A DNA stretch of 34,197 bases from a virus. Position numbers and translations under genes: made by a program. The first letter of the stretch is position 1. Every line of letters begins with the position of its first letter. The stretch covers positions 1 to 34,197 of IMG/VR virus record IMGVR_UViG_3300024259_000825; one strand, 5' to 3'. The notes under the pieces are model-generated. The model saw only the letters and a list, made by a program, of their open reading frames with translations. It had not been told where the DNA came from and searched no databases. Shown in pieces: positions 6,021 to 31,865 of the stretch.

Positions 6021-6596
6021 CTAGAACGGAATACCGTCAACCCAGAACGTATCGGGAAGACCCAGTATATCGGCGGGATCGTGGTTAAATGGTTCGTCAG
6101 GCCATACGCGCCAGGCTCCCACGCTAGGATCGCTACCACACAACAGGGTAAGGTCGCCAGCCCATGGAATGCTAAACGCAGATACGATCTTTTCCTTGTC
6201 TTTTGCTTGTGTCGTAATGGTATGCCTAATGACGAACCCCACAGGACAATCCGTCTTCGCTTTGCTAAACGAGCATTGCGAGTCCACCGTAGCACGAAAC
6301 TTCTTGACAGCTTCCATAAATGCTACATATTGCGGCGACTCTACCGGGTTGTCCTCGGGAACGCCGATATCACGGTGGATGTCCACACACCAAAACAATC
6401 GCCTAGGCTTGCGAGATATCGCATGCTGTAGCGTAGCCGCGAGAGCCATCGCGCATCCTCTAGCCGTCTTCTCTACGTTGACGAGTGGGTCGTACACCTT
6501 GGTATCAAACCACTCGTCGGATCGTTGACTACTAGGAGGCGGCGGGGGCTGCCTCTTGCGACTCCTTGGCGGGGGCGGGGGCGATTTACGGGCCAT
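6021..6596 (-). CDS. Unknown protein with double polyproline-basic N-terminal tail
   Basis: The 191-residue product starts MARKSPPPPPRSRKRQ and continues with a second run of five prolines, then a folded-looking domain (GCAMALAATLQHAISRKPRR, LFWCVDIHRDIG) up to a hydrophobic C-terminus (DTFWVDGIPF). The polyproline plus Arg/Lys tail belongs to a set of similar tails on unrelated proteins of this phage. No catalytic motif is evident. It lies 3 bases after the preceding stop and 8 bases before the next start, so it is within the operon. Confidence 0.7.
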   Translation of the reverse strand: MARKSPPPPPRSRKRQPPPPPSSQRSDEWFDTKVYDPLVNVEKTARGCAMALAATLQHAISRKPRRLFWCVDIHRDIGVPEDNPVESPQYVAFMEAVKKFRATVDSQCSFSKAKTDCPVGFVIRHTITTQAKDKEKIVSAFSIPWAGDLTLLCGSDPSVGAWRVWPDEPFNHDPADILGLPDTFWVDGIPF

Positions 6597-8455: not shown

Positions 8456-8649
8456 CTTTTCGCTGCGTTTTCCACTAGCTTTACGTCCTCGTCGCTTGCC
8501 TCTTGTCGCATTACACGCCCCATCGCCCCTAGCACCTTTCTTACCTGGCGGGGGAGGGACTCGTACGCCTCCTCGGCCTGACCTACTGTCTCTGGCTCGG
8601 GCAATCCGACTAGAGCGAGGCATACCTCGCAATCGCATTTTGTCGTCAT
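8416..8649 (-). CDS. Small protein with N-terminal Cys cluster
   Basis: A 77-residue product starting MTTKCDCEVCLALVGLP, with cysteines in C-x-C-x2-C order at residues 5, 7 and 10, followed by an alpha-helical region (AEEAYESLPRQVRKVLGAMG). The ATG overlaps the upstream stop as ATGA, the typical coupling in this genome, which supports this frame over the methyltransferase frame running through the same bases. It overlaps the proposed methyltransferase start by about 40 bases. Function unknown. Confidence 0.65.
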   Translation of the reverse strand: MTTKCDCEVCLALVGLPEPETVGQAEEAYESLPRQVRKVLGAMGRVMRQEASDEDVKLVENAAKRCNGAIFRDLTPQ

Positions 8650-9335
8650 TCTGCATCCTCAATCCCAGCGCGCTTAGTCGCGACAGCTTTGGCCATTGCC
8701 GCAATATCGGCGTCTGTATAGCCATCTTCAATGAGTGGCATAGCGCCTCCACCTACCGTATCTGTCGCCGTCTCTATTCTCGCTGCGGCGTCTGCAGCGT
8801 CGTTAGCGATTACGCGCCTCTTCTCGCCCATACGCTTGTCCAGTTGCACTAGAGCGCCGATCGCACCTTCAAGAGACTTAGGCTTAACAGCCTCAATACC
8901 AGCCTTATCATCGCCCTGGATATGCTTCATAGCGATAGCACTCGCCAACTCCAAAGAGACCATCTCCTCTATTTCGCGCTGTACGAGTTCTGTTTGCGCA
9001 TGCTCCATGACCGCCGCCCGGATATCTTGCCAGAACTCCTGTCGCCTACTGCGCCATTTATCTTTCTGCGCGACTTTCATTACATACGCTAAACTGCAAC
9101 AGTCCCTGATATACGTCGCCCCTTCGTCTTCTGACATTACGCCAGTAGTCCATACCTGCCTAACGCCCATACCCGGGTTTCGCATATATACATGGTACGC
9201 GCGAAAGATCGCCATGCGTGTTAGCGCGGACTTGTCCAATACGACCACCGAAGTTGCTACCGAGATCGGAGCCTTCTTCTTGGCTTTCTTTTTACGACTC
9301 TTTCGCTTCTTCGGTGGGGCAGGTGGGCGACGCAT
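8646..9335 (-). CDS. Helical DNA-binding-like protein, perhaps small terminase type
   Basis: The 229-residue product begins with a Pro/Lys tail (MRRPPAPPKKRKSRKKKAKK), another member of the recurring tail set. The body is alpha-helical: RMAIFRAYHVYMRNPGMGVR, then KDKWRSRRQEFWQDIRAAVM near residues 90-110, and a long helix (VQREIEEMVSLELASAIAMK). The W-x-x-R-R-x-E-F pattern after a possible HTH recalls small terminase subunits and related phage proteins, but no large terminase lies beside it, so this is a weak family guess. It follows the RuvC-like gene by three bases. Confidence 0.6.
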   Translation of the reverse strand: MRRPPAPPKKRKSRKKKAKKKAPISVATSVVVLDKSALTRMAIFRAYHVYMRNPGMGVRQVWTTGVMSEDEGATYIRDCCSLAYVMKVAQKDKWRSRRQEFWQDIRAAVMEHAQTELVQREIEEMVSLELASAIAMKHIQGDDKAGIEAVKPKSLEGAIGALVQLDKRMGEKRRVIANDAADAAARIETATDTVGGGAMPLIEDGYTDADIAAMAKAVATKRAGIEDAE

Positions 9336-9338
9336 AAT

Positions 9339-9986
9339 CTACTTCTTACGGGCAGGGGGAGGAGGAGGAGCACGGCGTTTAGGGGCCTTGAGAGGCTCCA
9401 AAACGGCCGCGGGGGGCTCAGGGGTAGGCGCGGGTACCTGAGGCGTAGAAACGCGTAGCAACGCCCTCAGGGTGTCGTGGTGCTCTGCTGCGATCACTGC
9501 CCCGCAGGCATCGACGGGGTGCTCCCTTCTGGCCTTGGGTAGCCCTTCCAGGAACTCGCCAATATTGTCGAAGCCGGGGCGAGCACGAAGCCATGTCTCC
9601 ATTTCCACCTTACTCGCTGTCTTCTTGTTACACACGGCGAGCTTAATTTCGCCAGTAGGGATCTGAAGTACGGGCAGACCCATACTCTCGCATTGCATGA
9701 CACACAAGCCCCACGACATGCCAATCATGGCGCAACTAGCCGAGTTGCGCGGCCATGACTGTTCCTCGAACACGACAGCAACGACCTCCTCGAACGGCAC
9801 CTCATTACGCAGATACCGGGCCTGGGCCTGCATACGGCTTACCCGATCTTCAGACGCTCTAATCCGCTTAGTGGTTTTCTTCGTCTGTACAGTTCCCGCA
9901 TGGATAAGGTCGAAACCCTCGTCGGTCATTTCGACTAGACACCAACCAAGGTTAGCGAGTCCAGTATCAATTCCTAGCACTTTCAT
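9339..9986 (-). CDS. ruvC: RuvC-like Holliday junction resolvase
   Basis: Resolves four-way DNA junctions formed in recombination-dependent replication. Acidic active-site candidates are D7 in MKVLGIDTGLANLGW, E74 or E75 in VVFEEQSWPRNS, and D159 in HPVDACGA, in the order and spacing of the RuvC/RNase H fold. At 215 residues it is a little longer than bacterial RuvC (about 170) because of a Pro-rich extension after residue 175 that ends RRAPPPPPARKK. Its start overlaps the SbcC-like gene by 20 bases, and the context of SbcCD, RecA and SSB supports the role. Confidence 0.85.
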   Translation of the reverse strand: MKVLGIDTGLANLGWCLVEMTDEGFDLIHAGTVQTKKTTKRIRASEDRVSRMQAQARYLRNEVPFEEVVAVVFEEQSWPRNSASCAMIGMSWGLCVMQCESMGLPVLQIPTGEIKLAVCNKKTASKVEMETWLRARPGFDNIGEFLEGLPKARREHPVDACGAVIAAEHHDTLRALLRVSTPQVPAPTPEPPAAVLEPLKAPKRRAPPPPPARKK

Positions 9987-11829: not shown

Positions 11830-12821
11830 AGTTCCTCTCGCTGTGCGAAAGCGTGCATGTCTGTAGGAGCTGCCGCGGCGTTGCGTTCCATATACGACAC
11901 TACCGCGCCTAACACGTCCCCACTAAAATCGTCGATTGACCTGGCTGTCGGGGTGCTGATCGGCCGATACATAACCGGGGCGATGATACCCGCCTTCTCC
12001 AGCGTCGCTGACATATTGGGCACGTCTGCCCTTGACGCAGACACTATTACGCGAACCTTATCTCGGTCTTCTAGCCAGTCAGGCTTCACAGGGGCACCGT
12101 CGCCTATGTCCCAGTGGATCGTAACATGCCTAGGCGCCCCTAACCCCTTGAACGGCTTACGAATAGGGATCAGCGACTTACTCGCGTCCTTCCACAGTAA
12201 CCAACCCTTGTCCTGCCCTTCCTCGCTAAATGTAAGCTGATACGGTGAGCCGCAATACACGACACGCCCCAGAACTTGAGGCATATGGTAGTGGCCAGAC
12301 ACCACGAGTGTATCAGCCGGGATAGAGCGCACCGACCCGCCACGACGACACTTATACATATCGTTTAGATACGCGCCCTTGAATCCATGATGGCAGAACA
12401 CGAGCTTAGGGGCTACGCCGCTCCGGTCCTTCAGTACGTATTGAAACACACTGTCGAAGTCGTGTGTATACGGGATCGCGCCTCCAATAGTGCCAAATCT
12501 TGGTATCCGCAACTGAGGAGTTGGGTGAGATACGACAATTGAAGAACCGCCGTGCAAACCTTCCAACGCGTTTCGGTACTCGTCGTATTGATCGTGATTT
12601 CCTGGAACCAGTACGATAGGCCCAGGCCAGCTAAACAGAAGGTCTCTTAGGCGATTCCACAAGGGCATATTGGCCGACACACCTTGCTCGAACACGTCCC
12701 CACAGACCACCGTAACACCCCCATACTTACTCGCGTCTTTACGCAACTGCTCTAACGCTGCGAATACATACGGGGCGGTGGCCTGGGTTAGGTGTAGGTC
12801 GCTGGTAGCTCTAATCCTCAA
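11811..12821 (-). CDS. sbcD: SbcD/Mre11-like nuclease (T4 gp47 type)
   Basis: Metal-dependent phosphoesterase that works with the SbcC-like ATPase. The calcineurin-type motifs are complete: MRIRATSDLHL with D8 and H10, GDVFEQG (D42), VPGNHDQYDEY (N75, H76, D77), CHHGF (144-145) and SGHYH (176-179). Length 336 fits phage gp47. The start is TTG 12821-12819; GGAGG six bases upstream decides it, and it overlaps the end of the HNH gene by 11 bases. Being directly before sbcC in the same operon, the two form the usual complex. Confidence 0.93.
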   Translation of the reverse strand: MRIRATSDLHLTQATAPYVFAALEQLRKDASKYGGVTVVCGDVFEQGVSANMPLWNRLRDLLFSWPGPIVLVPGNHDQYDEYRNALEGLHGGSSIVVSHPTPQLRIPRFGTIGGAIPYTHDFDSVFQYVLKDRSGVAPKLVFCHHGFKGAYLNDMYKCRRGGSVRSIPADTLVVSGHYHMPQVLGRVVYCGSPYQLTFSEEGQDKGWLLWKDASKSLIPIRKPFKGLGAPRHVTIHWDIGDGAPVKPDWLEDRDKVRVIVSASRADVPNMSATLEKAGIIAPVMYRPISTPTARSIDDFSGDVLGAVVSYMERNAAAAPTDMHAFAQREELWQDLS

Positions 12822-13302
12822 CGTGCCTCCATGTTTTCCTAGTTACGATTTGAGAAACAGTCCCTATCGCAATTTCAAACTTATTAGCGAGATCTTTGTA
12901 CGTACTTCCTTCCTTTCTCATAGCGCGCAACTGCATCACCTTTTCGCATGTCATTCTAGTATTACCGTTTCTCTCGCCAACTTGCGATGTTCCGTGCTCC
13001 ACCTTACGAGCGTGGTTTCTCTTTCTTGTTTCCCACTTGAGATTTCGCAATCGGTTGTCAAGGCGATTTCCGTTTATGTGCGACGATTCCTTACCTGGAG
13101 GAGGCGGGCCTTTGAACGTAATAAGGACGATTCGATTCCACCTAACCGTTTTCAACCCGCTGTCGTCTTGCATAAGGGTGGCATGTCTATAGCCCCACTT
13201 ATTAACAGAGCCTCGTAGATTACGCCGAAACCCCTTGTGCCGTATGGACCCGTTGGGATGTGCTTCGTACTTACGAAATCCTGGGACAGTTTTCCAACGC
13301 AT
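12811..13302 (-). CDS. HNH homing endonuclease with NUMOD4-like and HTH parts
   Basis: A free-standing mobile gene product that nicks or cuts DNA so that its own gene spreads. Residues 1-45 resemble NUMOD4 (WKTVPGFRKYEAHPNGSIRH). Residues 55-95 resemble HNH_3, with SHINGNRLDNRLRNLKW containing the catalytic His and the N/D framework. A C-terminal HTH (STYKDLANKFEIAIGTVSQI) gives DNA specificity. I start at ATG 13302-13300, since GGAGG lies five bases upstream; a second ATG at 13320 is in the hairpin arm. It is inserted between recA and sbcD and looks AT-richer than its neighbours, consistent with transfer. Confidence 0.9.
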   Translation of the reverse strand: MRWKTVPGFRKYEAHPNGSIRHKGFRRNLRGSVNKWGYRHATLMQDDSGLKTVRWNRIVLITFKGPPPPGKESSHINGNRLDNRLRNLKWETRKRNHARKVEHGTSQVGERNGNTRMTCEKVMQLRAMRKEGSTYKDLANKFEIAIGTVSQIVTRKTWRHVED

Positions 13303-13320
13303 GGCAGCCTCCGCTGCCAT
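13301..13320 (-). promoter_or_regulatory. RBS-sequestering hairpin of the HNH gene
   Basis: On the minus strand ATGGCAGC, loop GGAG, GCTGCCAT form a perfect 8-bp stem. The ribosome site GGAGG lies in the loop and first stem pair, and the start codon ATG 13302 overlaps the 3' arm. Folding would hide the start site. Similar RBS hairpins are known for T4 homing endonuclease genes, where they limit translation of early read-through transcripts. Confidence 0.7.
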
Positions 13321-13342: not shown

Positions 13343-14785
13343 TTACCGGCCTTCCATAAACAATGCCTTAAGCGTCGCCCACAACACAGGATCGTCTGCC
13401 ATCATGTTAGACAACCCCATCCATCCTCTAAACGATTTATCGCTAGTCCCCAGGATCGACGGATCTACGAATCTACTCCAGGCGCCACCAACCCTGATAA
13501 TGCCTCTCGCTTTGAAGTCTTGATACATCGCAAAGGCGTTCTCTGCGCCACGGCCGAATACCAGGCCATACTCCTCTGTTCGAAACGGCGACTCAATCTT
13601 GTTTTTAGGGACCTTGATTCGGACGATTTGGCCGAGTGGCGGTTCCTTGTTCGTCTTCGCTGCCGTTGACTCGAAGATATCGCCGACCTTATCCACTTCA
13701 ATACGAATCGTCGTGTGGTACTTGATACCACCGCCACCATACGTCTCACTCGCCTTGTACCCGCTCCGATTGCCCATTTGCAGTTTTTCGTACCGCTGAT
13801 TAATCAGGACAAACCCGATCTGTTCATCGTCGATAAGCTGCACTAACCGTCTGAGGTTACGACGAATGACCCTAGCCGCCGACGCCGGGTGAATGTCCCT
13901 AGCGTCGCCGTCCAACTCGCCCTCGGTGGGCGTACCCGCTACGCTGTCCCATCCGACGATAATCGGCCTGTCTGCGGACTGTACTAGATCGTGTTCTTCC
14001 CCTGCGTCCCAGGCAGCCAGCGCTTTTTTCATCTCGACAGGGTCGTCTGTATGTACGATTACGGGCCTAAGGAGCTTCCGGACAGGCGCGTCTCGTACAC
14101 TGGTCTGCGGTAGGTTGTGCGCTTTCTGATACTCCAGGATCGCTGCCGCCTGCTCACGACCCCATCGAGACAATACGAACACCTTGATCGGCTTACGATG
14201 CTTCTGTCTATGCGTCGCCGGGTCGAACACTTCGAATCGGTACGTTGGGCACTTCGGGCACTTAGTCCCTGAACGAACTAGGGCGTTTCGCCATGCCTCG
14301 GCTCTATAGTGCGCCACGTTGCGGGCCAGGGTCTCAATCTCGTCAAACATGGTCTCTACAGTGCTACCGTCAATCCAAATCAGCGACTCGAAGTTGATAC
14401 CCAGGCGAGCCATGTACCCACGATTACGAGCCCGCTCCACATCGGCCAGCACACCGATCCCACCCTCTGCCTGGCACTGCGCGATGATTTGGTCCAGCAT
14501 CGTAGACTTACCGGCCCCAGGCCATCCACTAATCTCGGTCATTCGCCCAAGTGGGATCCCGGGAGTTCCGAGCGCGCGGTCCAAAGCAATATTACGAGTA
14601 CCGACGTACCCCCTAGGAGAGCCCATCTCGTCGCATACGTCCATAGTCGCCGCTGCGCCTACTCCGTGACCATCTCGAACATGACCAGCTAGTGCGCGAG
14701 CGTATGGATCGCCCATTGACGGTTTAGGCTTGCGCGGTCGCTTAGGCTTTCGTTTGGGGCGAGGCGGAGGGGGGGCTTTAGCCAT
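13343..14785 (-). CDS. recA: RecA/UvsX-like recombinase with polyproline-basic N-terminal tail
   Basis: Forms filaments on ssDNA and drives strand invasion. It starts MAKAPPPPRPKRKPKRPRKP at ATG 14785, behind GAGGA; the TAATG overlap joins it to the SSB -1 extension. Walker A is GWPGAGKST (87-95). Further RecA features are GVLADVERARN after it, a Walker-B-like PIIVGWDSVAGT, and FVLINQR with the Gly-rich ETYGGGGIKYHTTIRIEV. An inserted CPKCPTYRFEV segment around 180 may bind zinc. Length 480 exceeds bacterial RecA (about 350) because of the tail and inserts. Its neighbours SSB, the UvsY-like protein and SbcCD fit. Confidence 0.92.
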   Translation of the reverse strand: MAKAPPPPRPKRKPKRPRKPKPSMGDPYARALAGHVRDGHGVGAAATMDVCDEMGSPRGYVGTRNIALDRALGTPGIPLGRMTEISGWPGAGKSTMLDQIIAQCQAEGGIGVLADVERARNRGYMARLGINFESLIWIDGSTVETMFDEIETLARNVAHYRAEAWRNALVRSGTKCPKCPTYRFEVFDPATHRQKHRKPIKVFVLSRWGREQAAAILEYQKAHNLPQTSVRDAPVRKLLRPVIVHTDDPVEMKKALAAWDAGEEHDLVQSADRPIIVGWDSVAGTPTEGELDGDARDIHPASAARVIRRNLRRLVQLIDDEQIGFVLINQRYEKLQMGNRSGYKASETYGGGGIKYHTTIRIEVDKVGDIFESTAAKTNKEPPLGQIVRIKVPKNKIESPFRTEEYGLVFGRGAENAFAMYQDFKARGIIRVGGAWSRFVDPSILGTSDKSFRGWMGLSNMMADDPVLWATLKALFMEGR

Positions 14786-14961
14786 TATGGTCCTCGTAAT
14801 TCCTTCTTGAGAGTGTCTATGTCCACGATTTGGGGTAGCTCGTCGCCAGCACAAGAGGCCTTAACGTCGCTACCCCACGGGCATTCCACGCAGACTCGAT
14901 CGTCTGCCCAGTACTTCCCGAAACAGTGACAGTCGCCAGGGGGTGATTCTAGAAGTTGTCC
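14785..14961 (-). CDS. Cys-motif extension of SSB, reached only by -1 frameshift
   Basis: An open frame of 58 codons plus TAA in the -1 frame relative to the end of the ssDNA-binding protein. It reads GQLLESPPGDCHCFGKYW, then DDRVCVECPW and further to KKELRGP, and its stop overlaps the recA ATG. The cysteines C11, C13, C24, C27 and C37 match the C-F-x-x-Y...C-x2-C...C pattern of the small protein at 19647-20078. From the preceding in-frame stop (inside the SSB gene) there is no ATG, GTG, TTG or CTG before the Cys motif. The SSB frame ends over G_GGC_CCG (14967-14961), which allows a slip from GGC CCG to GGG CCC and would give a 482-residue fusion. A sequencing indel in the G5C3 run is the main alternative. 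Confidence 0.6.
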   Translation of the reverse strand, partial: GQLLESPPGDCHCFGKYWADDRVCVECPWGSDVKASCAGDELPQIVDIDTLKKELRGP

Positions 14962-14974
14962 GGGCCCCCTGGCG
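14934..14974. repeat. 10-bp perfect hairpin spanning the SSB stop and slippery site
   Basis: CGCCAGGGGG at 14934-14943 and CCCCCTGGCG at 14965-14974 are perfect complements; allowing one G-U pair the stem grows to 13 bp (14931-14977). The loop contains the SSB stop codon, and one arm overlaps the slippery heptamer. No T-run follows, so it is not a standard terminator. It may affect frameshifting, mRNA stability or re-initiation at recA. Confidence 0.6.
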
Positions 14975-16232
14975 GCTTCGGAGGAGGGGGCGGTGCCTTC
15001 CCACGAGGAGGCGCTGGCGGCGCCTTACGCTGGACGGGAGGCTGAGGGGGCCCCGCGGCCCTAGTCGGGGGCTGAGGAGGGCCAGACGGCGGCTGAGGCG
15101 GCGCAGGAGGGCCTCCCACCTGGTAGCCGCCCCCAGGCTGGTAACCAGGTGGGTTGCGAGCAGGAGGAGCGGCCGGCGCTGGCTTCTGTGCGACGACTGC
15201 CGCGGCAATCTCTGGCACGTTCATAGCGTCCGCCCAGTCGGGCCATCCTTCCACCCATACGGCGTGTCCTTCTTCGCTACCTGAGCCAACGATCAGACGA
15301 GCGATAGAGATCACGTCCAGATCTTGCTGCTGCCCTGTTGGCCCGTCGTAGAAGAAGACATCACCACTCGCTGGGGCCGGGGCACTAGCCGGCGGGGGAG
15401 GCGCCGCAGACCGAGTCGGAGCCGCTGGAGTGGGTGGCGGCGCGTCGCTGTATCCGCCAGTCGTTCGGGCGCTTCCGGCCCTAGGGTCCACTAGCGCCGC
15501 AACATCTCGCAGGGCGTCCGTCGATGTCGACTTTTCCAGACCTTCAAGACCATGCGCCGAGTACAAAACGGGCATGAGGGATTCGTCCAGCGTCTTACGG
15601 TCGCTCGCTTCGCCGATAGCGTACCGAACATCCATCTTTCGCTTACCGACACGCTTCTTGGCGATCTTGAGGTCGCGACCCAGTTCGTGATCCTCTACCG
15701 GTCCCTTGTTGATGCAGATATCGAGGATCGCCGCGTGTACTGTCTGCGAGTAGCCCCACACGAACGGCTGAATCGCCCAGCCGCCCTGGCCGTCGTCAGT
15801 CCAGTGGGAACTAGGGTCGCCCATGTCGATAACGTTGCAGAAACAACGAACCCGCGGATACAGACTCTTAATCAGCTCGTCGTATGACGAATTACGAGCG
15901 TCTTGCAGGTCCTTACGCAACTTGCAAATAGGGCAAGTAGTCTGCGCGGCTGAGTTGGTAGGATCGTCAGGGCAGTTGAATTGCTTGTCTTCGCCGTCCA
16001 CGGTCAAACGATGCACTGCGACGCGCACCCAGAACGCCGGGTAAGGGCGGCTAGGATCGGGCTGCCCGTCGTCACCCTTTGGAAGACGCGGAATGATCCG
16101 AATGTGCTTGATCGTCTCCTGGCCCTTGGATGCCGGGCTCGGGATGTCTAGCCACTTGAAATCGCCACCTCCGCCACCTCCGCGAGGGATTTTACCGAGG
16201 CGTTCTTTTTCCTGTTCGTATACGGACGACAT
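14949..16232 (-). CDS. ssb: gp32-like single-stranded DNA-binding protein, long Pro/Gly tail
   Basis: Coats ssDNA at forks and loads recombination proteins. The core has FWVRVAVHRLTVDG with H74, then C87, C100 and C103 in CPICKLRKD, that is H-x12-C-x12-C-x2-C. This closely follows the zinc site of T4 gp32 (H-x12-C-x9-C-x2-C). Residues 17-23 are a Gly run. After about residue 245 the protein is Pro/Ala/Gly rich with an intervening acidic patch, and from 345 on it is almost purely Pro/Gly/Gln/Arg, ending PGGPDNF. The acidic-aromatic tip recalls the partner-binding tip of bacterial SSB. It is separated by three bases from the UvsY-like gene. Confidence 0.85.
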   Translation of the reverse strand: MSSVYEQEKERLGKIPRGGGGGGDFKWLDIPSPASKGQETIKHIRIIPRLPKGDDGQPDPSRPYPAFWVRVAVHRLTVDGEDKQFNCPDDPTNSAAQTTCPICKLRKDLQDARNSSYDELIKSLYPRVRCFCNVIDMGDPSSHWTDDGQGGWAIQPFVWGYSQTVHAAILDICINKGPVEDHELGRDLKIAKKRVGKRKMDVRYAIGEASDRKTLDESLMPVLYSAHGLEGLEKSTSTDALRDVAALVDPRAGSARTTGGYSDAPPPTPAAPTRSAAPPPPASAPAPASGDVFFYDGPTGQQQDLDVISIARLIVGSGSEEGHAVWVEGWPDWADAMNVPEIAAAVVAQKPAPAAPPARNPPGYQPGGGYQVGGPPAPPQPPSGPPQPPTRAAGPPQPPVQRKAPPAPPRGKAPPPPPKPPGGPDNF

Positions 16233-16235
16233 GCG

Positions 16236-16952
16236 CTATCTCCTAGTCGATGGGGGAGGGGGAGGGGTACTTGTCTTGCGAGGCGGGGGAATCGGGGTTC
16301 TACCCCTAGTGACGGCCTGATCCTCAGACTCGGCCACGTCCGGCCTTTCATGCTCACTATGCCCAGGATGGCGGGTGGTTGTATCGTCATCCGCCTCTGG
16401 ATGGTGAATACGCCTGCTATGGGAAGAAGTGTCGGCCCCTGTGCTGCGCTCCCAGCCCTTGATAGCCCAGGTGCGCGCCTTCGCAGCTTCCAAAGCGGCA
16501 TGTAGAGTCGCCCACACCTCCTCGGCTTCTAGCTTGGCCTCGTACAGCTTTCGGTATTCCGGACGCGTACGCATATACGAATCAGCGTCGCCCTTGGTCG
16601 GCATCTTGGTAGGCTTCTCGTTGCCCTTGGCGTCTAGGCCTGGGTTCACGATACACGCGAACTTAGCCTTACGAGCCGCTCTCTCGTTGTTTACCACCTT
16701 CCAGACTGTCTGCTCGCGCCATACGCGATAGTCGACCTCGGCAAGTTCCTTATCCCGGTATGCCGCAGCGACCAACCGGCCCAACTCACTGATAATGCGA
16801 GGTGTGTTGGCGGCCTCTTGCTCTGGCTGCTCTGGGTCGATGGCGACCAAAGTAGCCAGGTACGCGCCGCTGTATTCCTGCCCCCTAAGCACGACAGGCG
16901 GCATAGCAGCCAACCCGGCGATCATTGCCCTAAACGGTGTTCCACTACTCAT
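16236..16952 (-). CDS. Probable UvsY-like recombination mediator
   Basis: In T4, UvsY helps UvsX displace gp32 from ssDNA. Here the 238-residue protein lies between SSB and DNA polymerase with recA close by. Residues 60-170 are helical: VDYRVWREQTVWKVVNNERA, then KPTKMPTKGDADSYM, then YRKLYEAKLEAEEVWATLHA and AKARTWAIKGWERSTG. The order (Tyr/Trp helix, basic K-P-T segment, Tyr-rich helix, then A-I followed by a helix end) is how I remember UvsY, but sequence identity is low, so this is an inference from pattern and neighbours. The tail is polar and ends with two polyproline runs (TPIPPPRKTSTPPPPPSTRR). It overlaps the polymerase gene by 8 bases. Confidence 0.55.
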   Translation of the reverse strand: MSSGTPFRAMIAGLAAMPPVVLRGQEYSGAYLATLVAIDPEQPEQEAANTPRIISELGRLVAAAYRDKELAEVDYRVWREQTVWKVVNNERAARKAKFACIVNPGLDAKGNEKPTKMPTKGDADSYMRTRPEYRKLYEAKLEAEEVWATLHAALEAAKARTWAIKGWERSTGADTSSHSRRIHHPEADDDTTTRHPGHSEHERPDVAESEDQAVTRGRTPIPPPRKTSTPPPPPSTRR

Positions 16953-19382: not shown

Positions 19383-19690
19383 TTACGCCTCCTTCGCAGT
19401 CCGAAGAACCAGTTACCGCTAACAGTAGGGTTTCCGGTAATTCTCCTAGCGACTGCGCTGAGGGTTTTATAGCGCTTGCCCTTATATTCATATCGCCACC
19501 ACCCACGGTCAGCGGCTTTCTGTCGCCTATACTCTTTGGCCGGACGATTTACAGGTGGAGGGGCGAAGGCGTGCCTAACGAAGACCTCGTGAACTTCGCC
19601 CTTCCACAAACGACGGATAGACGCCCCCTCTGGCAGGTCTCTGGAGTCAACGGGTACGGCTACGACCGACTCTCGATTTCTTTTTGCCAC
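19355..19690 (-). CDS. DUF2924-like protein
   Basis: The 111-residue product shows the order typical of DUF2924: a Pro-Gly/Glu-Gly start to a strand (DLPEGASIRRLWKGEVHEVF), then WWRYEYKGKRYKTLSAVARR, ITG and a W-F-F-G-L end. These proteins occur in phages and prophages; the fold resembles a small nucleic-acid-binding barrel plus helix, but the function is not known. GTG 19690-19688 is preceded by GAGGG. It overlaps the upstream gene by 44 bases and the downstream gene by 28. The middle contains APPPVNRPAKEYRRQK, a weak version of the Pro-basic tails. Confidence 0.7.
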   Translation of the reverse strand: MAKRNRESVVAVPVDSRDLPEGASIRRLWKGEVHEVFVRHAFAPPPVNRPAKEYRRQKAADRGWWRYEYKGKRYKTLSAVARRITGNPTVSGNWFFGLRRRRKCTASLLLK

Positions 19691-20078
19691 GGCGAACCCT
19701 CTTTTTCTTGGGAGGAGGAGGCGTAGCCGGGCGACTGGTTACCACTTTGATCCGCTCGTCTACCACTTGGCTCGGAACGCCAAGTGGTGGCGCGACTTTC
19801 CCACTCTTGAGGCGTTCGAGATAGCGACGATCGCCTCGCCAGCAAGACACGCCCACGATACACCCTTGGCACAGCGCACTCGCAGAATCGTACACCCGGC
19901 GGAAACACGACGGGTGGTCTTTGTCGCTATAGTCGCTTCTAAGGGACAGGAGCGCCTGTCCGCCCATTTCTGACATGCTGCTGATCGTACTGCTCGAGAC
20001 TCCGATAGATACCAAACGCTCGCGCGTCTCGTTCGTCAGCGGAATATCCAATGCGGATAACCTAGTCGATCCCATCAT
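19647..20078 (-). CDS. Cys-cluster protein with polyproline-Lys/Arg tail
   Basis: The 143-residue product has C58, C70, C73 and C79 in HPSCFRRVYDSASALCQGC followed by IVGVSC, that is C-x11-C-x2-C-x5-C. This resembles a motif seen in various phage proteins and is repeated in the SSB -1 extension and in the protein at 30806-31378; it may hold zinc or an Fe-S cluster. The C-terminal 30 residues are a disordered basic tail (TPPPPKKKRVRRGKKKSR). ATG 20078 follows GGAGGT and lies inside the sigma factor end. A nucleic-acid role is plausible from the tail; nothing is proven. Confidence 0.7.
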   Translation of the reverse strand: MMGSTRLSALDIPLTNETRERLVSIGVSSSTISSMSEMGGQALLSLRSDYSDKDHPSCFRRVYDSASALCQGCIVGVSCWRGDRRYLERLKSGKVAPPLGVPSQVVDERIKVVTSRPATPPPPKKKRVRRGKKKSRVGRSRTR

Positions 20079-22940: not shown

Positions 22941-24223
22941 CGGTTGAACCATGGTGTTTTGAGGGTGTCTACGGCGTAATACCCGCCCGTACCTGTCTTA
23001 GCTCTTACGCGATTGTTAAACGCAGCTCGGGCCGCGTCGAGATCGTGGAACACGTCGGCCGACTTACGACTAAAGTTGGGAGAACCGTACCGGCCATGGG
23101 AGATCGACACTTCGTAAGCACCCGCGACCTTGCCCTTTACCAGCAGAGCGATCAGGCGAACACAGTACCACTTGCCGCCGTGCTTAGTATCGGTTGCCCG
23201 ATGCATCATGAATTCGCACGCAGGATCGAACGGTGGCAAATCGAATTCCTTAAGGTGCGGCGGTGTCGCGTACTTACGACGTACGGATACAGCAGTTTCT
23301 TTACCAGGCCTATCCGGATAGCCGAGTTCTGGGTACACCGGGCGAGGCGTGCTGGGTACGGGCTTACCGTCCAACATAAGCGAGGAGTTGCCGACGTAGT
23401 ACAGAGAACCGTCTTCGACGAATGCCCACGCCACGACCTGAGCTTGGTTGACACACCGCTCATAGTCGTTATCTCCAATCAACTTGATCACCGAGCGAGT
23501 AGTGCCACTCTGTACCATCGTGGCCACGATCCCATCCTTGATCTTCCCACGCTCGGCCAACTCGGCTCGCATCAGTGCCGGGGCAGTCCGCATATCCAAC
23601 GTGGAGTCGTAAGCCCGACCCACGAGCACCGTACCGGTTTCGATTTCCGAGGAAGTCGCTGGATGGTACACGTTGACCAGGTTCTCCGGTTCTTCGGATG
23701 CTTCCGAGATAGACTCGTACGCCTTGCGAGTCTTACGGCGTCGCTTACGTCGAGAGGCGAAGTCGTCGTCAGTACCGGAGAAAATCCGAGGCTCTTCGAC
23801 CTTGGGTACGTCTCCGATCACCGGGTTATCAGACACGTCTGGAGCCGCGACCTTACCCGTGAGGACGGCAAAACTACGATGACCGAAGTATACCTCGCGC
23901 CAACCGGAGTACGACGGACCGTCTAGCAGGTTGCCGACAGCGCGATAGCCCAGCTTGATAGCCGACGAGATTGACATAACAGTGCCGATATTACTCGGGT
24001 TTACCGTGTCACCGATCCATTCTCGGAACCCGCCAACAGACGGCACTGCGACAGTCTCGAAGTAGTTGAGAGTCTCCATCGCGCCACTGACCATACGCAC
24101 GACCCACACCTCATATGGATCGTCGGCTGGATCGTGAGTCACGAAGATAACGAAAGCCCGTCGATTGTCTTCGTCCGGTCGGCAAACCGACGCAGCTACG
24201 ATTTCGTGGTTTACGTCACTCAT
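22937..24223 (-). CDS. Unknown protein between the CobS- and CobT-like genes, with RRKRRR motif
   Basis: A 428-residue product overlapping the ATPase gene by 8 bases behind GAGGT. The N-terminal part looks folded (AFVIFVTHDPADDPYEVWVV; GYRAVGNLLDGPSYSGWREV). Residues 152-163 read DDDFASRRKRRR, nearly identical to residues 143-154 of the protein at 2103-3254. The C-terminal part contains KWYCVRLIALLVKGKVAGAY and ends DTLKTPWFNR. No known motif otherwise. Being inserted between the two partner genes in a tightly coupled operon, it may be their substrate, adaptor or regulator; this is inference. Confidence 0.8.
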   Translation of the reverse strand: MSDVNHEIVAASVCRPDEDNRRAFVIFVTHDPADDPYEVWVVRMVSGAMETLNYFETVAVPSVGGFREWIGDTVNPSNIGTVMSISSAIKLGYRAVGNLLDGPSYSGWREVYFGHRSFAVLTGKVAAPDVSDNPVIGDVPKVEEPRIFSGTDDDFASRRKRRRKTRKAYESISEASEEPENLVNVYHPATSSEIETGTVLVGRAYDSTLDMRTAPALMRAELAERGKIKDGIVATMVQSGTTRSVIKLIGDNDYERCVNQAQVVAWAFVEDGSLYYVGNSSLMLDGKPVPSTPRPVYPELGYPDRPGKETAVSVRRKYATPPHLKEFDLPPFDPACEFMMHRATDTKHGGKWYCVRLIALLVKGKVAGAYEVSISHGRYGSPNFSRKSADVFHDLDAARAAFNNRVRAKTGTGGYYAVDTLKTPWFNR

Positions 24224-25283
24224 CGTTGACCTCGCCCTTGATATCGAACAGACGCCGAATCACCTCGACCACTGCATCGCGATCAATCTTGGAACGCATT
24301 TTGCGAAGGAAGGCGGGATACGCCGCCTCTAGGATGAAAGAATCGTATCGCTCGTCGGGAAGTACGATGGCGTTGCCGTCTGCGTCGATATAGCCCGCAG
24401 ACACTCGGCGAGCCCACGCGACCAACATACGGAAACTGAACGAGATACCGTGATCGGTACCAGTCCGGATTTTCTGTGCGACTCGGACCATGCCCTCCAG
24501 GTCCTCGGGGTCGATGCTGGGCACTTTGGACATAATGGCCTTATGCTCGTCGTGGACGCCCATATAGCCGACCTGGACACAGGAATCGAAGCGGTCCAGC
24601 AGAGCCTCGTTCATCTCGGGATTCGTACCGCCGTACGAGAACCGCGACTCTTCCTGGGCGGCGCCGATCGTGTTGTCGGTGGCGAAGATCCGAAAGTCGC
24701 CATGGCGAACGGCGTATCTCGCTGGCTGCGCCTCTTCGAGGTATACCTCTCCGTCGGGCTCGAGGATCGGGAACAGGGACAACGACACTGGCGGGGTAGC
24801 GCCAGACACCTCGTCCAGCAAAAGCCAGTCTCCGTACTCCATCGCCATAGTAGCGACACCAGGGACGAAAATGGTAGAACCGTCAGACGCACCGATTCGA
24901 CCTTTGAGGTGCCGCACGGTCGTACCGACATTGAGATTCACGCGATGAACGCGAATGTTGCAGTGCGCCGCGATCTGTCGAATCAGGGAGGTCTTGCCGC
25001 TGCCCTTGGGACCGACGACCAGGGACGGGCTAGACAGGCTTCCATCATGCGGCCAGGCGGCCCATGCGACTTCGCGGACCATATCCTCTCGGAACACATA
25101 GTCGGGATCGATAACGGGCACACCCTCGCGGCGTGGACCGGCGATCCGGTACAGACGCACGTTTACGCCTGGGATTCTGTACGGTTCCCAAGTACGCGAG
25201 GCCTTGCGGGCTGCCGGCTTACGGCGCTTGGCGACGGACTTCTTGGACTTGGGAGCGGGAGGGGGAGGGGCTTTACGAGCCAT
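24216..25283 (-). CDS. CobS/MoxR-like AAA+ ATPase with polyproline-basic tail
   Basis: Walker A GPKGSGKTS (91-99), Walker B WLLLDEVSG (D157, E158), sensor FATDNT (N204) and arginine finger LLDRFD (R231) give a complete AAA+ site of the MoxR/CobS branch. The family remodels proteins or drives metal insertion together with a VWA partner, here the CobT-like protein two genes on. The first 30 residues are a tail of the recurring kind (MARKAPPPPAPKSKKSVAKR). ATG 25283 follows AGGTGA, 10 bases after the preceding stop. Phage CobS/CobT pairs are known, but their target is not. Confidence 0.88.
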   Translation of the reverse strand: MARKAPPPPAPKSKKSVAKRRKPAARKASRTWEPYRIPGVNVRLYRIAGPRREGVPVIDPDYVFREDMVREVAWAAWPHDGSLSSPSLVVGPKGSGKTSLIRQIAAHCNIRVHRVNLNVGTTVRHLKGRIGASDGSTIFVPGVATMAMEYGDWLLLDEVSGATPPVSLSLFPILEPDGEVYLEEAQPARYAVRHGDFRIFATDNTIGAAQEESRFSYGGTNPEMNEALLDRFDSCVQVGYMGVHDEHKAIMSKVPSIDPEDLEGMVRVAQKIRTGTDHGISFSFRMLVAWARRVSAGYIDADGNAIVLPDERYDSFILEAAYPAFLRKMRSKIDRDAVVEVIRRLFDIKGEVNDE

Positions 25284-29517: not shown

Positions 29518-30867
29518 TTAATCCTCGTACGATGGAGGCTCAGGCTCGCACTCCTCGCCCAGTACAGAGAAAGCCCCATGATCATAGTCAGTAGAAACGC
29601 GCACGATAACACCGTCAACACTATCGCGATACTTGCCCAAAAATACGCGGGCTTGGTTCGCTTCTTTCTCTTGCCTCGTGCGATTAATCGAAATGATAGA
29701 GTCAGCGACACGGACCTTTTCATAGCTATCGGCAATCTCCTGGGGCCTGAGTACGTGCTCGCGCTCGTCAGCGCCGCTGGACGGACGCTGGGCCTGGCTC
29801 GGGGATGATACAGCGTATCCGGGGTGCCCTTTGTACTCGGTGCGCTCTGACAGCGCCTTAAGCTGCCTAAACGCTGTGCGCTGCCTAAGGTATTCGTTGT
29901 CGCCATCGGCCCGCATTAGATCACCGTAATCGACGACAATCATATCAGGCACCCATCCATGGGCGCGCCTTAGCTCTGCGAGTTCCCCTAGGATGTCATC
30001 GAACGTAATGTGCCACGCGTCACGATCGTTAAACCCGCGAACTACCATGTTATGGCGCAGAATATCGTATTCTCGCCTTAGCGCAGACTGTACCTTGGCC
30101 CCGAACTCACCTCGCCGTACGAACCCATACATCTCGCCGCTAAACCGGGCCTCGTACCTATCCTCGGTTTTTGAACGCCCACCCTCAAGTACGAAATGCA
30201 AGGCGCGACGCCTCATGCGAGTACACACAAAACCCCGCTGAACACACCAGTATGTCTTACCAATACCGGAATACGCGATCGGAACTTCCAGTTCACCGTA
30301 CGATAGCCCACCGTGCATGGCCTTATCAATAGGGGCGATTCCGATGGGGAAAAAGTCCATTTGCGACGCGATCAATTGCCGCCTTGCTTGTCGCTCGTGG
30401 AAATCCTCGAAGAACCAGCCGCGATCCGTCGTAGATATCTGAATCGCCTGTAACTCCTCGATACGATGCATCATCTTACGCTCTGCATCGTTGTACTTAC
30501 CCGCGTTCCACGCCTCTCTGGCCTCTTCAAACCCTAGGCGAAACACTTGTCGGCGAGACCACTCTATGATCTTCTCACGTACATACGAATCCTCTCGCCA
30601 GTCAGGCGCACTAGCCACAATAGCGGCGACACCTGCTCTAGATGGATCTTCAGACGGCAAAGACGCCGACTCGGTGGTCAGCTCCATAGTAGTCGGGTAC
30701 TTGCTAGTAGCCACGACATTCCACGCCCACAACGATGCCGGATCCGTAAACCCCAGGCGTCCTTCCGTTACGAACCGCTTGACCAGGAATAGCAGAGAGG
30801 GATCGTCAATACAGGCGTGAATCAGCACTCTCTGAAAGTCGGGGCCGAATTCTTCCGCTCCTAACAT
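29518..30867 (-). CDS. dnaB: DnaB-like replicative helicase
   Basis: Unwinds DNA ahead of the polymerase. I start at ATG 30867 (MLGAEEFGPDFQRVLI), which has GAGGA at good spacing; an upstream in-frame ATG at 30927 lacks one. The N-terminal domain (1-150) is helical. The RecA-fold domain has Walker A AYSGIGKT (198-205, first Gly replaced by Ala), Walker B DMIVVDYGDLM (D313), and SSPSQAQRPSSGAD in the H4 position near 370. The protein ends with a short acidic tail. It overlaps the upstream gene by 62 bases, the longest overlap in the window. Confidence 0.88.
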   Translation of the reverse strand: MLGAEEFGPDFQRVLIHACIDDPSLLFLVKRFVTEGRLGFTDPASLWAWNVVATSKYPTTMELTTESASLPSEDPSRAGVAAIVASAPDWREDSYVREKIIEWSRRQVFRLGFEEAREAWNAGKYNDAERKMMHRIEELQAIQISTTDRGWFFEDFHERQARRQLIASQMDFFPIGIAPIDKAMHGGLSYGELEVPIAYSGIGKTYWCVQRGFVCTRMRRRALHFVLEGGRSKTEDRYEARFSGEMYGFVRRGEFGAKVQSALRREYDILRHNMVVRGFNDRDAWHITFDDILGELAELRRAHGWVPDMIVVDYGDLMRADGDNEYLRQRTAFRQLKALSERTEYKGHPGYAVSSPSQAQRPSSGADEREHVLRPQEIADSYEKVRVADSIISINRTRQEKEANQARVFLGKYRDSVDGVIVRVSTDYDHGAFSVLGEECEPEPPSYED

Positions 30868-31378
30868 GACGATTCCTCGCAGCTTTACTACATTCGGCGC
30901 TAACTGGACACGAATTACACCAATCACTATCGGCGCAATATCCGCCGGTCATATAGCCAGACGATCCTAGGCATGCGTCGTAAGCCCGTGCTCGGTGCAT
31001 TGCCGCCCTAAACGCCTCTTCGTGCGGGCGAAGTCCGCCAAGCGGCGCCCCGACCGTATCGTCCACAATACCCTCGGTTACGATCTCTTCCCCAGAAGCT
31101 CTAGCGGACAAGTCGCCCACGAACTCCCGGTATTTATCCAAAAACATAACACTCGCCAACTGAGCGGCGGGTATCTGCCTAACCCACTTAATCGCACCGT
31201 GGCGAGCCCTAATCCATGTCGCTGGATTTACGCGGTATCGCCTACAGAACAAACCGAACAAACGAAGATCCCCTCGCAGTTCGTCCGTAAGTACCATGTT
31301 ATCGTAGAACCGGAACTGAGCCGTTTCTCGCTTGTACGTTACGAACAACGCGTGAGAATCGTAATTCGGTTTACCCAT
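30806..31378 (-). CDS. Unknown protein with Cys cluster near the C-terminus
   Basis: ATG 31378 lies inside the end of the upstream gene (ATGGGTAA overlap), with GAGGA before it. The 190-residue product has aromatic-rich helical parts (LRLFGLFCRRYRVNPATWIR) and C136, C148, C154, C157 and C163 in GYCADSDWCNSCPVSAEC, a C-x5-C-x2-C-x5-C pattern shared with the protein at 19647-20078 and the SSB extension. It is placed between an unknown gene and the DnaB-like helicase; a helicase loader or primosome role is possible from position only. Confidence 0.7.
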   Translation of the reverse strand: MGKPNYDSHALFVTYKRETAQFRFYDNMVLTDELRGDLRLFGLFCRRYRVNPATWIRARHGAIKWVRQIPAAQLASVMFLDKYREFVGDLSARASGEEIVTEGIVDDTVGAPLGGLRPHEEAFRAAMHRARAYDACLGSSGYMTGGYCADSDWCNSCPVSAECSKAARNRHVRSGRIRPRLSESADSRLY

Positions 31379-31865
31379 TATCGACAGTCCTCGCCCTCGC
31401 CGTCTGAGAGGCTTTTGGAGGCTCGCATACGCCAGTAATGTCCTGGTGCATGGTGATAGGATCGTATACTGTGTGCTCCCCACCTACGAACGGGTGGAAA
31501 TCAATAGCGATAGGGGGTTCGCCTTCCATAACTGCCTGCATATGGTACGCCTGTAGGATCTCCTGTAGACGAGGAAGAAGCGGACCAGCTACGGCGCGAC
31601 ACAATACGTTGATATTCAGTAGCAGCCACCCGTGCCCACGAGATTTCCAGAAGTGGAGGAGACCGCCGGCCGTAAGGCCTGGCACCCCTGCCGGCCACAT
31701 AATCGTGCGGCCCTCTGGATCTACCTTAGGTGGGCGAGTGGGCATGATAGCCCCGATTTCCGATGCTCGGGTTAGCACTTGTGCGACCTTTTCCGGGTCC
31801 ATGTCCTTAGCAACATGAGACCACGCCGAATCGCCCAAAGTACGCATCCATGTTTGGCTATTCAT
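31371..31865 (-). CDS. Unknown protein, first gene behind an extended -10 promoter
   Basis: The 164-residue product starts MNSQTWMRTLGDSAWSHVAK after GGAGGT. The middle (TIMWPAGVPGLTAGGLLHFW; GWLLLNINVLCRAVAGPLLP) is hydrophobic but interrupted by polar residues, more like a folded core than membrane helices. No cysteine or catalytic motif. It opens the transcription unit that continues through the Cys-cluster protein, DnaB and DnaG. Function unknown. Confidence 0.72.
   Translation of the reverse strand: MNSQTWMRTLGDSAWSHVAKDMDPEKVAQVLTRASEIGAIMPTRPPKVDPEGRTIMWPAGVPGLTAGGLLHFWKSRGHGWLLLNINVLCRAVAGPLLPRLQEILQAYHMQAVMEGEPPIAIDFHPFVGGEHTVYDPITMHQDITGVCEPPKASQTARARTVDNG

Follow-up and report, generated by a model that had tools for sequence, protein, structure and literature searches.

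A candidate -1 frameshift near the end of a phage gp32-like SSB gene, followed by a four-cysteine module in the overlapping frame

The lambda G/GT-type tail chaperones are among the nearest described counterparts of the arrangement reported here: they present a start-less -1 overlapping ORF, a heptamer near the zero-frame stop and a minority fusion product, and this arrangement is kept although the heptamer sequence changes from one relative to another. In dnaX (tau/gamma), a DNA-replication protein is made in two C-terminal forms through -1 slippage, and this gene is also an example of orthologous genes that differ in their recoding route (PMC3711429). A different solution is seen in NTGA-overlap coupled gene pairs, where a four-base start/stop overlap places the two ORFs in a -1 relation. 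With respect to the slip sites, C_CCA_AAG reportedly shifts very readily in E. coli and the haloarchaeal tailed virus HCTV-1 has its shift site at G_GGA_AAC (PMC5009743), and a survey-tool paper reported XXXYYYZ motifs without base restriction at annotated phage frameshifts (PMC10885494).

The locus that we describe shares features with each of these systems. It has the general arrangement of the lambda G/GT type; however, the proteins involved are a replicative single-stranded-DNA-binding protein (SSB) and a four-Cys extension, and in some relatives the downstream ORF has its own start. While the dnaX shift truncates the protein, the SSB shift would add a new domain to it. The four-base overlap and -1 relation of NTGA pairs are seen in the outgroup and in a number of relatives, whereas the analysed DNA and three other lineages have no start at the overlap. 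The core SSB region is like that of gp32-like phage SSBs (SPO1 gp32.4, phrog_1192, PF08804), but here a GYF_2 domain and a Pro-rich tail are added, the C-terminal residue is an invariant Phe, and a Cys module follows out of frame. In a limited search of the open-access literature we found no SSB frameshift, in agreement with the original prediction made from this DNA, which knew of none.

The DNA analysed (hereafter the window, 34,197 nucleotides) corresponds to positions 1-34,197 of IMG/VR record IMGVR_UViG_3300024259_000825, a phage metagenome contig. The features relevant to this work are the following.

14949 to 16232, minus strand: gp32-like SSB gene; zero-frame product of 427 aa, ending PDNF
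15183 to 15365, minus strand: GYF_2 domain inside the SSB, then a Pro-rich tail with PPGY; PF14237 is matched in relatives
14985 to 14991, minus strand: possible alternative slip site G_CCC_CCT, imperfect, suggested by the sequence; the 5' arm of the hairpin begins 10 nt downstream
14961 to 14967, minus strand: candidate slippery heptamer G_GGC_CCG, zero-frame aligned, three codons before the SSB stop
14934 to 14974, minus strand: perfect 10-bp hairpin around the SSB stop, with arms 14974-14965 and 14943-14934
14949 to 14951, minus strand: TAG stop of the SSB; the -1 codon lying over it, CTA, is no start
14785 to 14961, minus strand: -1 frame extension of 58 codons plus TAA, an approximately 50-aa four-Cys mini-domain with a C-terminal helix
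14851 to 14931, minus strand: Cys motif CHCFGKYWADDRVCVECPWGSDVKASC, C-X10-C-X2-C-X9-C
13343 to 14785, minus strand: UvsX/RecA-like recombinase (phrog_97, E 7e-44; Pfam RecA, 1.3e-35), downstream of the extension

The SSB gene is flanked by genes for a family A DNA polymerase, a UvsY-like protein and the UvsX/RecA-like recombinase, and therefore the locus is a phage replication and recombination operon. Between its ATP-binding and DSVAGT regions, the RecA/UvsX homologue (13343-14785, minus strand) carries an insertion of about 100 residues (residues about 160-265), common to close relatives and missing in the other phage RecAs of the alignment. Directly downstream of recA, before an SbcD-like gene, an HNH homing-type endonuclease (NUMOD4 + HNH_3) is encoded at 12811-13320, minus strand.

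Judging from profile matches, the upstream protein is a gp32-like SSB. The window copy matched phrog_1192 in a profile search (E 8.6e-5), reached only E 0.099 against Pfam gp32 (PF08804), which fails the cut-off, and showed a distant tblastn similarity to SPO1 gp32.4. For the nine-member SSB family, Pfam gp32 was matched by all nine (best 6.1e-10) and phrog_1192 by seven (best 6.3e-18). PF14237 (GYF_2) was matched by 8 of the 9 members (best 4.2e-8); the window copy itself was unmatched at E<1. The domain was modelled at pLDDT about 92, with the GltJ GYF domain as best PDB match (prob 0.95, but E 0.064). The SSB of one lineage, L131, apparently has two GYF_2-like repeats. Among named phages there was no DNA match to the window and no SSB protein match at 1e-5, and a relaxed-E search returned only SPO1-type and Lysinibacillus SSBs, all of them without the Cys motif.

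In many proteins of this phage the N- or C-terminus is drawn out into a PPPP-plus-Lys/Arg tail, such as MAKAPPPPRPKRKPKRPRKPK and KRRAPPPPPARKK.

RecA N-terminus at 14785; 24216 to 25283; 16236 to 16952; 19647 to 20078; 9339 to 9986; 8646 to 9335; 6021 to 6596, all minus strand: proteins with PPPP-plus-Lys/Arg tails

GYF_2 is a binder of proline-rich peptides and, since the SSB carries this domain, the tails could be docking tags for the SSB.

On the minus strand, the 3' end of the SSB gene reads ...CCG AAG CCG CCA GGG GGC CCG GAC AAC TTC TAG. The original prediction had placed a zero-frame G_GGC_CCG at 14967-14961, followed by a 58-codon -1 frame, and direct reading of the DNA agrees. This heptamer is one of only two in-frame X_XXY_YYZ heptamers in the 427-codon SSB gene of the window. 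Open from 15024 onwards, the -1 frame closes at the TAA at 14787-14785, whose last base is shared with the recA ATG (CCATAATGG), the overlap that had been foreseen. Before the Cys motif, the -1 frame of the window has no ATG, GTG, TTG, CTG or ATN codon, confirming that no possible start precedes the motif; likewise, no start codon for the Cys ORF was found within about 10 nt of the SSB stop.

A first RecA profile search gave 80 loci, of which only two belonged to close relatives (about 61% RecA identity), both with the SSB and then, in the -1 frame, a Cys motif. Further searching with profiles and patterns derived from the two relatives led to ten distinct lineages: the window, L106 (=L112), L107, L108 (=L109), L025, L110 (=L111), L026, L131, L132 and the distant L130, used as outgroup. 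The RecA proteins of the nine further lineages are about 37-63% identical to that of the window. In all ten, the Cys ORF lies in the -1 frame relative to the SSB, with its beginning no more than a few codons from the SSB stop and its end at recA or close to it. Searching viral contigs with the pattern CxCFGKYW gave chance matches only, besides the window's own virus; the Cys motif was absent from the other UvsX loci searched, and no relative was found in the genome contigs searched.

Nucleotide identity at positions 1/2/3 of the -1-frame codons was 0.52/0.53/0.33 over the ten lineages, a pattern that clearly points to protein-coding selection on the extension. The 10/10 lineages agree in the alignment at the residues CF and DR and at the first three Cys, and 9/10 at the fourth Cys; in the window the fourth Cys is shifted by 3 residues with respect to the relatives. 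The expected resemblance to two other proteins of the window was also found: similar modules are present at 19647-20078, minus strand (SCFRRVYDSASALCQGCIVGVSC), and 30806-31483, minus strand (YCADSDWCNSCPVSAEC), each with an hhalign P of about 0.002 and with the C-Xn-C-X2-C-X5-C spacing of the SSB extension. Because of this similar spacing, the Cys module seems to recur within this phage. It had no family match in Pfam, PHROG or NCBIfam. A WhiB-like [4Fe-4S] identity, which has a similar C-Xn-C-X2-C-X5-C spacing, was rejected, as the ten members gave no WhiB match in Pfam/NCBIfam with E up to 10. The AlphaFold model of the extension was of low confidence (pLDDT 59) and was set aside; the spacing of the cysteines suggests that the module may bind a metal or an Fe-S cluster.

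A base error or a decayed gene could be suspected in a metagenome contig with a G/C-rich hairpin junction, which is difficult for sequencing; the Cys domain would then truly be joined to the SSB or stand on its own, and the frame break would stem from the assembly or be the remnant of a dead gene. The sister record IMGVR_UViG_3300022916_000439 shares 23,982 bases with the window, with 8 mismatches and none of them near the junction. That a second, non-identical contig has the same junction bases argues against an assembly error, and the junction as originally read was thus upheld. Furthermore, the -1 relation is shared by nine other lineages, and the Cys residues and the -1 frame are under coding constraint. 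By these comparisons the explanation appears largely refuted, and we regard it as very improbable.

Where the last codon and stop are TTY TRR, the -1 codon YTR falls on the SSB stop. In the lineages with the stop TGA this codon is TTG (L106, L108, L132) or CTG (L026, L131); L106 also has an ATG overlapping the SSB stop (TTTTGATGG), and the outgroup L130 has GTG at the overlap. In those with the stop TAG it is CTA (window, L107) or TTA (L025, L110), neither of them a start. These are the four start-less lineages; the window and L107 have no start codon at all, and L025 and L110 only ATC or ATT.

Each start-less lineage carries a perfect in-frame heptamer at most 10 codons from the SSB stop: G_GGC_CCG in the window, G_GGA_AAC in L107, C_CCA_AAG in L110 and C_CCC_CCA in L025. 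The CTG-only lineages L026 and L131 have near-stop heptamers too (C_CCC_CCT and C_CCC_CCG), and L106, L108, L132 and L130, in which an ATG, GTG or TTG overlaps the stop, have none at this distance; A_AAA_AAG of L108 and C_CCC_CCT of L132 are located farther upstream, yet within the -1-open overlap. A heptamer in the last 12 codons was thus present in 6/6 lineages without ATG/GTG/TTG versus 0/4 with one (exact test 1/210), a value that serves as a guide, the lineages being few and related and the limit of 10-12 codons for near-stop heptamers having been picked after the data were seen.

The background of such heptamers is low. Each SSB gene has 0-3 in-frame X_XXY_YYZ; among ORFs listed mechanically for the same loci, 5/147 have one in their last 12 codons, and among internal SSB segments 9/327 have one. 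None was found in the other two phases at the near-stop site, nor in frame in other Pro-rich windows of the SSB gene in the four start-less lineages. In 8/10 lineages a heptamer lies inside the -1-open overlap (P 1.1e-5 with uniform placement, 0.003 with tail-codon shuffles that preserve composition, again as guides). The lineages without a start are dispersed over the RecA tree, with four changes (e.g. L107 groups with L106 and L108), and so the association between heptamer and missing start codon is replicated. The original prediction had asked whether the heptamer and the -1 frame are conserved together; the frame is in 10/10 lineages and a heptamer in every start-less relative, but its sequence and position differ between lineages, and what persists is its presence near the stop.

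In translational coupling, the Cys ORF would be a separate small protein, and termination at the SSB stop would be followed by re-initiation on the overlapping YTR codon. This fits the ATG of L106, the TTG of L108 and L132, the GTG of L130 and the CTG of L026 and L131, all of which overlap the SSB TGA; in addition, the window has AGGGGG 12 nt upstream of the CTA, and the extension and recA overlap as well. However, CTA and TTA are no known initiators, yet four deep lineages have them and retain all four cysteines. Were a start required, TGA-to-TAG changes should be selected against, and slip heptamers are present in all four start-less lineages. For the window we consider coupling unlikely. 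The original prediction had held that relatives with a separate start would refute frameshifting; such starts do occur in L106 (ATG), L108 and L132 (TTG) and L130 (GTG), and not in the start-less lineages. As an interpretation frameshifting is well supported for the virus of the window, but it is not the universal mode in the clade, because these four relatives have usable starts at the stop.

Transcriptional slippage, in which the RNA polymerase adds a base in short G/C runs (G5, C5-C6) and some of the mRNA encodes an in-frame fusion, could act on the C6 runs of L025, L026, L131 and L132 and on the G5 and C5 runs of the window. Against this, L107 (GGGAAAC) has no run longer than 3, and the longest in L110 is C5. 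For slippage by bacterial polymerase, five or six bases make a short run, and we find this origin of the fusion decidedly improbable.

The hairpin put forward in the original prediction does span the site with a perfect 10-bp stem; however, it is not a classical downstream stimulator at G_GGC_CCG, because the heptamer overlaps its 5' arm. Folding 5 nt downstream of the heptamer was ordinary (z 0.8 and -0.35), and no classical stimulatory structure was found there by folding in the window, so that this role of the hairpin was rejected. Across the family, stop-enclosing hairpins are somewhat stronger than at random positions, a modest effect (combined Fisher p 0.002-0.005). They would fit either coupling, since in several lineages they could hide a start and SD, or slippage.

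Taken together, -1 frameshifting near the end of the SSB gene probably gives, in the window, a minor SSB-Cys fusion beside the Phe-ended SSB. A minority of the ribosomes finishing the SSB would step back one base near the gene end. Tandem slippage on G_GGC_CCG, while the Pro/Gly-rich tail is read slowly, is the likeliest route, and polyproline pausing may be the stimulus. By theoretical pairing this heptamer is the weakest of the set, as the P-site change from GGC to GGG has a poor third pair. The Phe-stop codons (TTY TRR) were rejected as the slip site because the P-site tRNA would mispair. Slipped ribosomes would read past the TAG and produce an extended SSB in which the Cys domain replaces the -Phe tip. 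Most ribosomes would terminate and give the short SSB, probably functional too, since its Phe end is shared by all nine close lineages. The acidic-aromatic tip proposed earlier holds in its aromatic part, with Phe invariant, but the preceding residues are acidic in few members only (PDNF, DMPF). In the filament, the minority subunits may carry a metal- or cluster-binding, protein-contact module, which perhaps recruits the co-transcribed recombinase or polymerase. In relatives with a start overlapping the stop, the Cys module would be a separate, translationally coupled protein.

For the clade as a whole we suggest, tentatively and at somewhat less than even chance, that it switches over evolution between a frameshift fusion and a free coupled protein for this SSB accessory module. 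With the same reserve, start codon and slip site may replace each other, and slippage might determine the proportions in which the SSB forms are present on ssDNA, a fixed minority of the subunits bearing a metal-binding tip in place of the Phe tip. The clade would then be a natural experiment on start codon and slip site substituting for one another, in a little-known phage group with an out-of-frame Cys module behind the SSB. If the frameshift reading is true, a replicative SSB is made in two C-terminal forms via ribosomal slippage. The C-termini of SSBs are docking points for replication and repair partners, and for this reason slippage would be a translational means of fixing the proportion of a specialised SSB subunit.
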